64,000 bases of DNA. Origin: Methyloceanibacter caenitepidi. Lineage in GTDB: Bacteria > Pseudomonadota > Alphaproteobacteria > Rhizobiales > Methyloligellaceae. Shown piece after piece: positions 15,904-62,574 of the stretch (within the stretch, counting starts at the first letter, position 1; the number at the start of each line of letters is the position of its first letter). The notes beneath the pieces are model-generated. The model saw only the letters and a list, made by a program, of their open reading frames with translations. It was not told the origin of the DNA and did not search any database. The translations under genes and the position numbers were made by a program. The stretch is taken from positions 2,987,400 to 3,051,399 of the forward strand of contig NZ_AP014648.1 of NCBI RefSeq assembly GCF_000828475.1, given 5' to 3'.

Positions 15904-16320
15904 TCAGTCGCCGCCCGGCGCCAAGAACGGCAGCATGTCCGTGTGGTGGCCGATCATCTTCCAGGCGCCGTTCTCCTTGCGGAAGACGTTGGTCGCCCGG
16001 ATCGACACAGTGCCGGGCTTATCGCCCGTGTTGATGTTCTCGCCCTTCTCGTAGTTGTGCGTCACGCCGAGATCGCCAAGAACGGTGATGCGCATCTCCG
16101 CAGGCTCGACACGGCCGCCGAGTCTCTTCGCCGCCTGTATCTCCCACTCGGCGCGGATCGCGGGCCAGCCGTGCTGATAGCCGCCGTCCGGACCCATGTA
16201 TGTGACATCGTTCGCATGGGACCAAACCGCGAGCATCGGGCCCGCATCGCCCTCGAACATGGCGTTGAGCGCCGCGTAGAACCCGGCCGCCGCCGCCGCG
16301 ATCTCGTCTTGATCGGTCAT
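15904..16320 (-). CDS. NTF2-like fold protein (DUF4440 type) in the thiC operon
   Basis: The 138-residue protein is a paralogue of the gene at 9415-9849. It shares VTYMG, the GW-A turn, PAE, GDLG and the end VFRKENGAWKMIGHHTD. The NTF2-like fold forms a deep ligand pocket; no catalytic triad can be assigned. The start at 16320 is firm: its ATG overlaps the TGA of the DUF2267 gene as ATGA, which implies translational coupling. A much longer open frame upstream in this phase is a shadow of thiC. Its presence in a TPP-controlled operon suggests a link to thiamine or its precursors, but that is inference. Confidence 0.75.
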   Translation of the reverse strand: MTDQDEIAAAAAGFYAALNAMFEGDAGPMLAVWSHANDVTYMGPDGGYQHGWPAIRAEWEIQAAKRLGGRVEPAEMRITVLGDLGVTHNYEKGENINTGDKPGTVSIRATNVFRKENGAWKMIGHHTDMLPFLAPGGD

Positions 16321-16793
16321 TCCTGGGCTCCCTCGATGTAAATCTGCCCGCCCGTCCCGCGAGCCGTGCCCTCCTCCACCGCCCAGAACGCCCTGGCGGC
16401 TGGGGGCAAGCTCGACAGGACGCGCTCGAACGCCTGCGGTTCGACCGCGCGCCGGAGCGCGGCGGACACGTCGGAGATCGCGGATGGCGGCGCCAGATTG
16501 TGGTCGGGCCGGATCGCCTTGACCTCTCGGGTCAACGCAGCGCACGACGGAAACGGCGCAGGCGTACCCGACGGCCGCCAACCTTCCACGAAGATCGCGC
16601 GCGGCACTGCCGGCAGCACGCCGGCGAAGGTCAGCGCGTCCGCGACGCTCACATGATCGCGGAAGACATGCAGCACGGCGCGGAGCGTGTGATAGGCTTG
16701 GTTCACGGAGCTGAGCATGCAGGTGTCGCGCACGTCGACAAGCAGCGCCTCGAAATCCTTGGACGCACGCAGATATTCCGGCGGCACCGTCAT
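16317..16793 (-). CDS. DUF2267 family protein
   Basis: The 158-residue protein matches DUF2267: the core ALHTLRAV-type helix appears here as YHTLRAVLHVFRDHVSVADA, followed by FAGVLPAVPRAIFVEGWRPS. The family is helical and cytoplasmic, with no known activity. The gene starts three bases after the thiC stop and overlaps the next gene by four bases, so it belongs to the thiC operon. The C-terminal third (about 60 residues) contains a second, weaker helical repeat. What a DUF2267 protein does in thiamine synthesis is unknown. Confidence 0.75.
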   Translation of the reverse strand: MTVPPEYLRASKDFEALLVDVRDTCMLSSVNQAYHTLRAVLHVFRDHVSVADALTFAGVLPAVPRAIFVEGWRPSGTPAPFPSCAALTREVKAIRPDHNLAPPSAISDVSAALRRAVEPQAFERVLSSLPPAARAFWAVEEGTARGTGGQIYIEGAQE

Positions 16794-18692: not shown

Positions 18693-19079
18693 TCAAGCAA
18701 AATATCCAAAGTAGCAGAGCACGGCGCCGATGATCAGCCAGACCACGCCGCCGATGGTTGCAGCACCCGGTTTGTCCAGCATGGCATAGCCGATCTTCTT
18801 GACCGCGCTGAAACAAAGCATACGGATGGCGCCGCCGATGACGGCCATCCAGCCGAACAGCGTGATGATGAGGCGCCAGTCTAAGGCCCACACATTGTGA
18901 TTGAGCACAACGGCAAGACCCGCGGTCATCACGATAAAGCCGGTGACGTAGATCAGCGGAGGACTGTCGAGAAACTGCCGCGCCATGTCCCGCTGCGCCT
19001 CCGGGTTGACCAGAAGGCCGATCGCGGCCACGAGCATCACGGGGCCCATGAGCTGCGCCAGAAAGACCGATGTGTTCAC
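18693..19079 (-). CDS. Small integral membrane protein between TPP riboswitch and thiC
   Basis: The 128-residue protein has about four hydrophobic helices: near residues 5-25, 38-60, 66-88 and 105-127. It has no recognised motif. The start is GTG 19079 with AGGAG eight bases upstream, and that ribosome site abuts the end of the TPP riboswitch. It is therefore the first gene under riboswitch control and is followed nine bases later by thiC. By position it could take part in uptake or release of thiamine or its pyrimidine precursor, but it resembles none of ThiT, PnuT, YkoE, ThiV or the ABC-type permeases in size. Function unknown. Confidence 0.7.
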   Translation of the reverse strand: MNTSVFLAQLMGPVMLVAAIGLLVNPEAQRDMARQFLDSPPLIYVTGFIVMTAGLAVVLNHNVWALDWRLIITLFGWMAVIGGAIRMLCFSAVKKIGYAMLDKPGAATIGGVVWLIIGAVLCYFGYFA

Positions 19080-19093
19080 CGCAAAATCTCCTG

Positions 19094-19180
19094 TCCCTTC
19101 GCCGGTGCAAGCCGGATCAGGTTCTAAGGGTCTCCGCAGGTTTGCGGACTCTCAGCCCAGCATGGGGCTCCCCTCGGATG
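19094..19180 (-). promoter_or_regulatory. TPP riboswitch (THI element)
   Basis: Read on the minus strand, the conserved pieces appear in order: GAGGGGAGCCCC, GGGCTGAGAG, a variable hairpin with CCGCA/TGCGG, ACCCTTAGAACCTGATCCGG, and CACCGGCGAAGGGA closing the P1 helix. These are the pyrimidine- and pyrophosphate-sensor arms of the TPP aptamer. The element ends only two bases before AGGAG of the first gene. Control is thus likely to be at translation start, by masking the ribosome site when TPP is bound. Confidence 0.93.
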
Positions 19181-19438
19181 AGGTTCACCTTACGCCGACC
19201 GCTCGCGCTTCGAAAGGGGGCAGCACGATCGTGATCGAAAAGCTCTGCCTTTCGCGCTCGCTTGGCGCTCCAGGAGGCTCATAGACCGGGCACAGACCAA
19301 GGTTCCGGCCCGCGACTTGCGGCCTTAGGCCGCTGGGTCTAAGGCTGGCCATGAATATGCCTTGCTTCCCGCCGAATAACGGGCGCTAGACGACGCCGGA
19401 TTTCATTGGCCGCCGCGCAATACAGAGTGGACGAGAAC

Positions 19439-20578
19439 GTGAGTCAGACCGCCAAGAGTTCCGAAAAAGCACAAGATAATTCCGAGGATGCCGAAAAGAC
19501 CTCGAAGAACGGGGGCGCCAAGCTGCGCTGGATCGCGCTTGGTGTCCTGTTCGCGATCACGGTCATCGGCGTTTTCGGCTATTGGCGCTACGCGGAGATC
19601 TACCCCTCGACCGACAATGCCTATACGGGCGCCGATATCGTGCGGATCGCGCCGCTTGTCGCCGGCCAGGTGATCGAAGTCTATGTCGAGGACGACCAGA
19701 AGGTCTCCAAGGGCGATCCCCTGTTCGACATCGACCCCGTGCCCTATGACGCCGCCCTTCGCGGTGCCCGCGCCCAGTTTGATGCAGCCGCGGATGCGGC
19801 CGGAACCGAAGGCGAACCGCTGAAGGAAGCGGCGGGAGAGATGGAAGCTAAGCGCGTGGCCCTGGTCGACGCCTTGGGCCAATACCGCGCGGCCGAAAAA
19901 GCCCAGCGCGCGAAGGGCTCCTCGGACGCAGCGCCCAGTCCCGCCGTCGCAAAAGCCCTCGTCACGGTCCGCGAAGCGGAAGCCGCCTTTCAGACTGCCC
20001 ATAAGGCGTTCAGCGAGGCGCAGGACAAGAACATGGTCGTCACCGTTCCCACGGCGAAGCTCCGCGGGGCTGCCGCGCAGCTCGACAAGGCGACCGAAGA
20101 TCGCGTGAAGACACATGTGCTCTCGCCGGGTGACGGCTGGGTCTCCGATGTGCGGATCCGGCCGGGCGCGGTCATGGATGCCGGCACGCCGGCATTTCCG
20201 TTGGTGGAGGCCGGCCCTTGGTGGGTGAATGCGAACTTCAAGGAAACCGACCTCCAGCGCATCCGGAAAGGGCAGCCGGCGACCATCAAGCTGGATATGT
20301 ATCCGGGCTACGCCATCGAGGGCACGGTTGAGAGCATCAGCCCCGGATCGGGCGCCCTGTTCTCGGTGCTGCCGCCGGAGAACGCCACCGGCAACTGGGT
20401 GAAGGTGACGCAACGCTTCCCGGTGCGGATCAGGATCGACGGCAAGCCGGATCCGAAACGGCCCTTGCGGGTCGGCGCCACCGCCACGGTAACAGTCGAT
20501 ACGACGGGCGACGATAAGACGGCGGGGGCACAAGCGGAACCCGCCCCGCAGAACACCGCGAGTGCGGGCACGCAATGA
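19439..20578 (+). CDS. HlyD/EmrA-type membrane fusion protein
   Basis: This 379-residue protein is the periplasmic adaptor of a tripartite or two-part efflux system. A hydrophilic N-terminus precedes one anchor helix (about residues 30-52). The motif TDNAYTGADIVRIAPLVAGQV then opens the lipoyl half-domain, followed by a helical hairpin and the second half-motif LSPGDGWVSDVRIRPGAV. The next gene overlaps its stop by four bases and encodes the 14-helix pump. I start at GTG 19439, after GGACGAG; GTG 19427 and TTG 19406 are in-frame alternatives. The pump probably exports hydrophobic toxic compounds; no dedicated regulator is adjacent. Confidence 0.85.
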   Translation: MSQTAKSSEKAQDNSEDAEKTSKNGGAKLRWIALGVLFAITVIGVFGYWRYAEIYPSTDNAYTGADIVRIAPLVAGQVIEVYVEDDQKVSKGDPLFDIDPVPYDAALRGARAQFDAAADAAGTEGEPLKEAAGEMEAKRVALVDALGQYRAAEKAQRAKGSSDAAPSPAVAKALVTVREAEAAFQTAHKAFSEAQDKNMVVTVPTAKLRGAAAQLDKATEDRVKTHVLSPGDGWVSDVRIRPGAVMDAGTPAFPLVEAGPWWVNANFKETDLQRIRKGQPATIKLDMYPGYAIEGTVESISPGSGALFSVLPPENATGNWVKVTQRFPVRIRIDGKPDPKRPLRVGATATVTVDTTGDDKTAGAQAEPAPQNTASAGTQ

Positions 20579-22386
20579 CCGATCGGCCGCGCGGGGGGAC
20601 CGGCGGCCGAAGCGCCGGAGGGCAGCGTCGGCCGGGCCGTACGCCGAGAAAATCGGCGGCGAAGACGGAATCCCTCAACTCCCAAAGCCCAAAGTCTCAG
20701 AGCCCAAAGTCTGAGAGCCCAGAGGCGGCGCGAGCGTCCGCACCTGCCAAAACGGCCGCCAAGACGCCACCCAAGACATCGGCGAAAAAGCCGCGCAGCA
20801 AGACGAACGCCGCGAAGCCTGCAGGCGGCGGCACCCGCCCCCCGGCTCCGAAACAGACCCCGCTCCCGCGGCCGCCAAAAGATCCGGACTCGCCTCCCGT
20901 GGCGCTTGTCGTCGCCGTAGTGCTGACGGCCATTCTGGAAGTGCTGGACATCACGATCGTCAACGTCGCCGTGCCCCATATGCTCGGCGCGTTCGCGGCC
21001 ACGCCCGATCAGATCACTTGGATCCTGACCTCATACATTGTAGCGGCGGCCGTCGTCGTACCGCTCACCGGCTTCCTGTCGAACTGGCTCGGCCGCAGGC
21101 GGCTGCTGCTCGGATCGATCACCGGCTTCGTCATCTCCTCGGTCCTGTGCGGACTGTCGTGGAATCTGGAGAGCATGGTCGTGTTCCGGCTGGCACAAGG
21201 CGTGTTCGGCGCACCGCTCGTGCCGCTCAGCCAGGCCATTCTGATGGATGCCTTCCCGCGCGACAAGCAAGGCCAAGCGCTGGCCATCTTCGGCCTCGGC
21301 ATCATGGTGGCCCCGGTCATCGGACCCTCCTTGGGCGGCTGGCTCACCGAGACCTATTCGTGGCGCATGGTGTTCTACATCAACATCCCGGTCGGGGTGT
21401 TGGCGCTCCTGCTTTCGGTCGGCTATCTGCCGAAGCGGTCCATCAAGGACATTACGACGGACTGGATGGGGCTCGCCCTCCTCATCGTCGCCGTGGGAAC
21501 ACTGCAATTGGTGCTGGACCAGGGGCATATGCGCGACTGGTTCGATTCCAAGCTCATCGTCGCTCTCACGATCATCTGCATCTTCACGACAATCGCCTTC
21601 TTCATGCGTGGCTGGAACAAGACGAACAACATCATCGATCTTTCGCTCCTGAAAGATCGGAGCTTCGTCGCCGGAACGCTGGCGATCACGCTGTTCGGCA
21701 TCAGCCTGTTCGGCTGGATGGCGATCATGCCGCTCCTCACGCAACGTCTTCTCGGCTATCCGGCCGACCTCGCCGGCATGCTGTTCATTCCGCGCGGCCT
21801 CGTGAGCGCGGCCATGCTCGCCATCACGGGCGGTCTCCTAATGCGCTTCGTCGACCCGCGCTGGCTTATCGGCTGCGGCCTGATCCTGACGGCTGCAGGA
21901 ACGCTACCGATGGCCTTCTTCAACCTTCAGGTGGATCCCTGGGCCATCATTGCGCCGACGCTGCTGGCGGGAGCGGGGACCGGCCTCTTCTTCGTGCCGC
22001 TCACGGCCGTTGCCTTCGCGAACGTGCCGAATTCAAAATACGACGAGGCGGCGGGAATCTATGCCTTGATGCGTGGAATCGGCGCATCGGCCGGCATCGC
22101 CATCGTGAGCTGGCTGTTCGTGCGCCAGGCGCACATTCACTTCGCCGAGCTCACCGCTCACATCACGCCCTATAACCGCGATCTCCTGCCCTATCTCACC
22201 GAGCGCGGGCTGACGCCGCAGGACCCGCAAGCGGGCGCAGCCGTGATGCAGGAGATCGCGCGCCAGGCGCAAATTCTCGCCTTCGACGATATCTTCTGGT
22301 TCATCGGGATCTGCACCATCGCCATCGTGCCGGTGATCTTCTTCATGTCCCGGCCGAAGACCACAGGTGTGGTGGTCGCGCACTAA
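20575..22386 (+). CDS. DHA2-family drug:proton antiporter (EmrB/QacA type) with long N-terminal extension
   Basis: The 603-residue protein has the 14 transmembrane helices of the DHA2 group. Motif A appears as GFLSNWLGRRRLLLGS, motif C as GLGIMVAPVIGPSLGGWL, and helix 1 carries LDITIVNVAVPHM. It should drive drug export using the proton gradient with the upstream EmrA-like adaptor, to which it is coupled by an ATGA overlap. The first 100 residues are unusual: a Lys/Pro/Ala/Ser-rich tail with tandem SQSPK-type units and KTAAKTPPKTSAKK. Typical EmrB proteins lack this. The tail is predicted cytoplasmic and could bind nucleic acid, membrane lipid or a partner. Confidence 0.9.
   Translation: MTDRPRGGTGGRSAGGQRRPGRTPRKSAAKTESLNSQSPKSQSPKSESPEAARASAPAKTAAKTPPKTSAKKPRSKTNAAKPAGGGTRPPAPKQTPLPRPPKDPDSPPVALVVAVVLTAILEVLDITIVNVAVPHMLGAFAATPDQITWILTSYIVAAAVVVPLTGFLSNWLGRRRLLLGSITGFVISSVLCGLSWNLESMVVFRLAQGVFGAPLVPLSQAILMDAFPRDKQGQALAIFGLGIMVAPVIGPSLGGWLTETYSWRMVFYINIPVGVLALLLSVGYLPKRSIKDITTDWMGLALLIVAVGTLQLVLDQGHMRDWFDSKLIVALTIICIFTTIAFFMRGWNKTNNIIDLSLLKDRSFVAGTLAITLFGISLFGWMAIMPLLTQRLLGYPADLAGMLFIPRGLVSAAMLAITGGLLMRFVDPRWLIGCGLILTAAGTLPMAFFNLQVDPWAIIAPTLLAGAGTGLFFVPLTAVAFANVPNSKYDEAAGIYALMRGIGASAGIAIVSWLFVRQAHIHFAELTAHITPYNRDLLPYLTERGLTPQDPQAGAAVMQEIARQAQILAFDDIFWFIGICTIAIVPVIFFMSRPKTTGVVVAH
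20684..20724 (+). repeat. Short tandem coding repeat in the EmrB-like tail
   Basis: About two copies of a unit near AGCCCAAAGTCTCAG, plus a partial third, encode the repeated Ser-Pro-Lys-Ser motif of the tail. Small differences (CAG/GAG) distinguish the copies. This looks like recent slippage growth within an otherwise conserved gene. Confidence 0.6.
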
Positions 22387-62416: not shown

Positions 62417-62574
62417 ATGGGGGCCGCGGTGGCCGTCGGAGCGAAGATCCCGGGTGTCCCTACTTAAGTAGGTGGGCGCCGAGTGACAGAGACCACGATC
62501 TCCGTCAGGGTCAGCTCCCATGGAATCTTATAGGGCCCTGGAATAAATGCTCCTAACGCACCCCGCAGCCCGGA
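62417..62574 (-). ncRNA. ssrS: 6S RNA
   Basis: The minus strand between zapA and ymdB has a TATAAT box (62581-62586) and then about 158 bases that fold as 6S RNA. GGGCTGC and GGTG at the 5' end pair with CACC and GCGGCCC at the 3' end (62421-62431). An inner GGAGC/GCTCC helix follows, then the open central region and an apical hairpin with GGAGATCGTGGTCTCTG. The segment CCCACCTACTTAAGTAGG is also typical of alphaproteobacterial 6S, as far as I recall. The RNA mimics an open promoter and holds sigma70 RNA polymerase in stationary phase. Location next to zapA strongly supports the call. Confidence 0.78.

Follow-up and report, generated by a model that had tools for sequence, protein, structure and literature searches.

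A small membrane protein gene that recurs beside thiC in Alphaproteobacteria, often with a TPP riboswitch, may encode a membrane accessory of ThiC

What does a small membrane protein gene do between a TPP riboswitch and thiC? The window analyzed here (the whole 64,000-nucleotide stretch of Methyloceanibacter caenitepidi contig NZ_AP014648.1, positions 2,987,400 to 3,051,399) raises this question with an arrangement on its minus strand in which a TPP aptamer is followed by a 128-codon gene with a GTG start, here called mem, and then by thiC. The elements are as follows.

19184-19076, minus strand: TPP riboswitch aptamer (RF00059; cmscan 66.3 bits, E of 8e-11 across the whole window).
19175..19179, minus strand: 5′ strand of the closing stem P1, AUCCG, partner of the Shine-Dalgarno sequence and imperfect in the window (Rfam alignment with mismatch marks).
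19092-19088, minus strand: Shine-Dalgarno sequence of mem, AGGAG, also the 3′ strand of P1 (Rfam structure line and sequence).
19079-18693, minus strand: mem, GTG start, encoding a predicted 128-residue four-helix membrane protein of no named family (open reading frame and homologues).
18683-16797, minus strand: thiC, HMP-P synthase, 628 amino acids, beginning 9 bases after the mem stop (PF01964, 613.8 bits, and PF13667).

The aptamer matched RF00059 over the full length of the model (positions 1 to 105) with a score well above the gathering score of 54.3 bits, in agreement with the original prediction of a well-formed TPP aptamer directly ahead of a membrane gene, and it was the sole TPP riboswitch detected in the 3.42-Mb genome. 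Minimum-energy folding of the leader was no better than that of shuffled sequences (z of -0.64), so the evidence for the aptamer is the covariance-model match; TPP binding and an effect on downstream expression are predicted from the same match. The aptamer had been thought to end two bases before the ribosome site, which needs correction: AGGAG, located 8 bases ahead of the GTG, lies within the 3′ strand of P1, so that closure of P1 would mask the ribosome site. P1 has mismatches in the window, and in the two nearest relatives (GTCC opposite GGAC) it pairs better by eye. In the window clade and in a separate second clade (L043, L044, L047, and L053), the start codon is found 11 to 16 bases beyond the aptamer core (11 bases in the second clade), which places the Shine-Dalgarno sequence in or beside P1. 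At other loci the aptamer lies 64 to 142 bases upstream; these distances leave out L082 and L074, where the start codon is not fixed.

The aptamer, thiC, and the apparent control at the level of the Shine-Dalgarno sequence are all standard for TPP-riboswitch thiC operons (the THI element regulon). The first gene is what differs; to our knowledge, mem is not among the thiamine genes of this regulon. A genome survey of TPP regulons (PMC3766115) lists 20 orthologue groups for biosynthesis and 19 for transporters.

We first consider whether mem is a gene at all. Of 30 genomes from the family, 27 carried similar-length homologues, and Ka/Ks against four relatives was about 0.1 to 0.27; a chance open reading frame was ruled out on these two grounds, and codon-level comparison indicates that mem is a real gene under purifying selection. 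The spacing of exactly 9 bases to thiC, the only copy found in the genome, bears out the original prediction. Several neighbors were recorded in passing. A DUF2267 gene (PF10025, 82 bits; 16317-16793, minus strand) begins a few bases past the thiC stop and may belong to the same operon; upstream of the riboswitch, a divergent pair encoding an HlyD-type membrane-fusion protein and an MFS transporter (19406-22386, plus strand) is probably an unrelated efflux pump; and a 6S RNA (RF00013, 66.1 bits) lies at window positions 62417-62574 on the minus strand.

To place the protein, we scanned it against family databases. NCBIfam returned no family at E values up to 10, and Pfam returned only DUF2065 below its cutoff (16.7 versus 24.3 bits) and a chance-level DUF7470 match. 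Among 51 relatives, DUF2065 recurred weakly in 16, and no consistent transporter family appeared. The Mem protein is a member of an unnamed family without an accepted Pfam or NCBIfam match, and it matches no named transporter model, in keeping with what had been proposed; a known thiamine transporter was rejected because no family matched. SMR (EmrE-type) transporters resemble Mem in size (about 110 to 130 residues) and in having four helices, but Mem has no Pfam match to them and lacks their conserved TM1 glutamate. Aspartate and glutamate together average 0.02 per protein in TM1-TM3 (TM1 included) and 0.08 in TM4, and no acidic residue is conserved within any helix; an SMR protein was set aside for these reasons.

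When the alignment of 51 members was split in two, the profiles of the N-terminal and C-terminal halves matched each other with a score of 30.1 (probability of 87, E of 4.5e-6), whereas none of 60 column shuffles exceeded 15.7 and the C-terminal half in reverse gave 19.4. The parts of the protein are given below.

18900..19067, minus strand: first putative hairpin, TM1, amphipathic helix, and TM2, residues 5-60 (comparison of N- and C-half profiles).
18873..18899, minus strand: linker HNVWALDWR, residues 61-69 (alignment and conservation count, 51 members).
18699..18872, minus strand: second putative hairpin, TM3, amphipathic helix, and TM4, residues 70-127, DUF2065-like (hhalign).

DUF2065 (PF09838; E. 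coli YjeT) has the same hairpin plan, a transmembrane helix, a short amphipathic helix, and a second transmembrane helix, with glycines and prolines at similar positions. It aligned end to end with the C-terminal half of Mem at a probability of 89 (88.6, with E of 2.6e-6; reversed control, 1.4) and with the whole protein at a probability of 75 over residues 72-123, whereas the N-terminal half gave 16.0 and did not exceed its own reversed control (21.3). The C-terminal half of one relative, L031, passed the Pfam cutoff (24.5 versus 24.3 bits), while the window protein stayed below it. Since the N-terminal half resembles the C-terminal half, which in turn resembles DUF2065, these profiles suggest a protein made of a pair of DUF2065-like (YjeT-like) hairpins in tandem, with a conserved HNxWxxDW loop between them. 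DUF2065 itself has only one hairpin, roughly 60 residues long, and the HNxWxxDW linker, conserved in the mem family (H61 in 98%, N62 in 88%, W64 in 92%, and W68 in 100% of the 51 members), is absent from DUF2065 proteins. A separate true DUF2065 gene is also present in the window genome.

A single-sequence AlphaFold2 model of low confidence (pLDDT of 63.5) placed helices at residues 3-24, 26-38, 41-59, 68-101, and 107-127; a model from two sequences gave the same helices at a pLDDT of 52.7, with no trustworthy fold. Both the sequence and these modeled helices fit four transmembrane stretches. Comparison of the poor single-sequence model with PDB structures gave a designed bundle as the best match (Z of 7.7), and a profile search of PDB sequences gave a best E of 0.16. 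Lysine and arginine are richest in the two amphipathic helices (2.3 and 2.2 per protein), which by the positive-inside rule hints at cytoplasmic amphipathic helices and an outward-facing HNxW linker; the hint is weak because acidic residues are as frequent as basic ones in the first amphipathic helix.

To determine how strong the link to thiC is, we compared the coordinates of mem, thiC, and TPP riboswitches within each of 249 genomes of the order. mem was found in 49 genomes, thiC in 131, and both in 40. The two genes lay within 2.5 kb of each other in 27 of these 40 genomes, from 9 families, where chance would give about 0.06; for one of the 27 (G074, L042), the count relies on the beginning of a thiC gene broken by a contig end beside mem. 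mem was also more frequent in genomes with thiC (40/131) than in those without it (9/118; Fisher P of 5e-6, with members of a family not independent). A class/phylum-level search added three further families of the class with the link (L060/L139, L074/L268, and L082/L141). Judged from gene positions, the adjacency is thus kept in at least 12 families of Alphaproteobacteria, and the coupling to thiC that the original prediction read from a single locus recurs far beyond the window. The companion expectation, that homologues should not mostly lack a link to thiamine genes, had a divided outcome: 27 of the 49 mem-bearing genomes have linked copies, but the remaining 22 have only unlinked or undecidable ones.

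Three gene orders were seen. TPP-mem-thiC, the window type, is the commonest; mem-TPP-thiC occurs at L008, L009, L013, L018, L020, L021, L024, L026, L032, and L034; and TPP-thiC-mem occurs at L139. In L035, mem precedes thiC and no riboswitch was detected. Tandem mem pairs stand ahead of thiC in L017 and L052, and another (L012) stands at a contig end. The window's genus contains both of the first two orders, with mem ahead of the riboswitch, and therefore not under its control, in about half of the genus; the same contrast separates L264 from L268, which share at least a family and perhaps a genus. On a protein tree of 127 columns in which many forks are poorly supported, the thiC-linked label was clustered but still required 11 changes, compared with about 30 in shuffles. 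Since at least 4 of the 11 are forced by starred branches, the tree suggests that the pairing has been repeatedly made or broken, whether it was ancestral with many losses or had several origins.

These patterns bear on the explanation that mem is an old neighbor of thiC retained through slow rearrangement. The linkage is partly inherited within families, and genes other than mem also adjoin thiC: an FAD-binding gene in L102 and an acyltransferase gene in L264, each separating mem from the riboswitch, and an unrelated gene in L227. However, mem and thiC stay close even where, inside a single genus, their order and their position around the riboswitch shift (the window genus; L264 versus L268), and tandem duplicates are retained beside thiC as well, so we regard hitch-hiking as very improbable. 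The L227 gene (L227:3260-4024, minus strand, genome G150) encodes 254 residues with a signal-peptide-like start and lies between the TPP riboswitch and thiC.

Homologues away from thiC were examined for clues to function. Most are apparently single genes in varied contexts, whether or not the genome has thiC, and they extend to Bacillota and to Legionella plasmid records; in the plasmid records every copy is annotated as a hypothetical protein or is unannotated. Their neighbors include a tRNA synthetase gene (one genus), a two-component pair, MreB, alanine dehydrogenase, ankyrin proteins, and a folate dehydrogenase/cyclohydrolase, among others, and comparison revealed no common theme; deriving a function from unlinked relatives was therefore given up. 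With homologues this common and in such varied company, with and without thiC, the family's core activity is not thiamine-specific. Two contexts may be recorded for their own sake. In L110, L111, and L113 (genus f21 g26), the homologue adjoins a gene for a 593-residue D/K/N-class tRNA synthetase (Pfam was run on L110 only; L111 and L113 have the same length). In Methylocystis and Rhizobium plasmids (L202:4716-5288 and L203:5633-6307), the homologue has an isoprenylcysteine carboxylmethyltransferase-family gene nearby, which may be chance. Very weak distant matches (L092-L098; 18 to 22 bits, mostly in frames of 370 to 455 amino acids) were set aside as chance.

The unlinked homologues, including those in thiC-lacking genomes and in other phyla, together with the similarity to DUF2065, favor a second explanation: a general envelope family, a YjeT/DUF2065-like helper of membrane complexes with no direct role in thiamine metabolism; some lineages would have put it in the thiC operon for expression at low TPP or simply along with a housekeeping operon. 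The E. coli DUF2065 gene presumably stands beside hflKC. Linkage to thiC in 12 families, in three gene orders, with repeated changes and far above chance, argues against this explanation, and we consider it unlikely.

Might mem instead transport the pyrimidine? A new small importer or exporter of HMP, thiamine, or a related pyrimidine, acting as an oligomer of four-helix subunits, would fit a membrane gene under riboswitch control. It would also fit the riboswitch counts: at most one TPP riboswitch was found in 22 of 27 thiC genomes with linked mem but in 34 of 104 without it (Fisher P of 6e-6, a value that is too small because genomes within a family are not independent and the comparison is confounded by phylogeny). 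mem could replace other TPP-controlled uptake operons, leaving no need for another, or these lineages could simply rely on synthesis. The genomes that lack thiC point the other way. In six inspected that carry a mem homologue (G065, G077, G139, G169, G182, and G251), no TPP match was found within 7 kb on either side of the homologue, contigs permitting, and yet each has two or three TPP riboswitches. Such auxotrophs should keep an importer under TPP control, which disfavors a general importer; neither a transporter-family match nor a conserved acidic residue within the helices was found. We rate a transporter as rather unlikely; a stand-alone thiamine importer or a general HMP importer is less likely than an accessory of ThiC. 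TPP with mem in the absence of thiC was never seen except in L012, from G028, one of the nine mem-bearing genomes of the order without thiC, where the contig ends behind a TPP riboswitch and two mem copies; thiC may there be merely unsequenced.

We therefore tentatively favor the reading, to which we assign a probability of roughly 0.4, that mem encodes a membrane accessory co-produced with ThiC for HMP-P synthesis. The TPP-bound aptamer would hide the mem Shine-Dalgarno sequence in P1, and as a result the protein would be made mainly at low TPP; mem, presumably co-transcribed with thiC, would be translated just ahead of it and probably coupled to it. The product, a small inner-membrane protein of two tandem DUF2065-like hairpins, would then serve as a docking or scaffold subunit for ThiC at the membrane, or as a small-molecule path for it, for example in electron supply or in disposal of the by-products formate and CO. 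In favor of a ThiC accessory are the linkage in 27 of 40 two-gene genomes, the three gene orders and repeated changes, the tandem copies beside thiC, the position of the Shine-Dalgarno sequence in or beside P1 in two clades, and the restriction of TPP with mem to thiC loci, save at one contig end. Against it, mem went undetected in 91 of the order's 131 genomes with thiC, so it is not a general requirement of ThiC; unlinked members are common, without shared neighbors, some in genomes lacking thiC; other genes adjoin thiC too (L227, L102, and L264); in about half of the window genus mem lies outside riboswitch control; and no structural or sequence feature of Mem indicates ThiC binding.

A stricter form of the accessory reading, in which Mem is a dedicated membrane partner of ThiC that brings HMP-P synthesis to the membrane or serves the radical-SAM enzyme (by supplying electrons or by clearing CO, formate, or HMP), with TPP switching the two together, is doubtful; it would be the first of its kind known to us. 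The ThiC reaction requires a reduced iron-sulphur cluster and gives off formate and CO, according to a paper that is silent on membranes (PMC11117688). This chemistry supplies concrete candidate roles, and the data point to none in particular. The original prediction had offered a new uptake, release, or assembly factor for the pyrimidine moiety; an accessory, assembly, or release function linked to ThiC holds up better than general import of thiamine or HMP. Uptake is less supported, given the six thiC-lacking genomes without a nearby TPP riboswitch and the lack of TPP-controlled copies away from thiC, the contig-end case L012 aside. Literature searches on DUF2065/YjeT function and on this gene beside thiC returned nothing about function; subscription papers and supplements lay outside their reach, and an earlier mention is possible.

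ThiC is usually regarded as a soluble enzyme that works on its own through a complex radical reaction (PMC11117688). By gene position the pairing of mem with thiC is well supported, and we rank its possible functions as ThiC accessory, then small transporter, then general envelope protein. The presence of mem beside thiC in at least 12 alphaproteobacterial families, often with the same riboswitch and sometimes duplicated, suggests that a membrane step accompanies pyrimidine synthesis in these bacteria. Its role, be it transport, docking, redox, or by-product removal, would be the first function for an unnamed family that is found in other bacterial groups as well.
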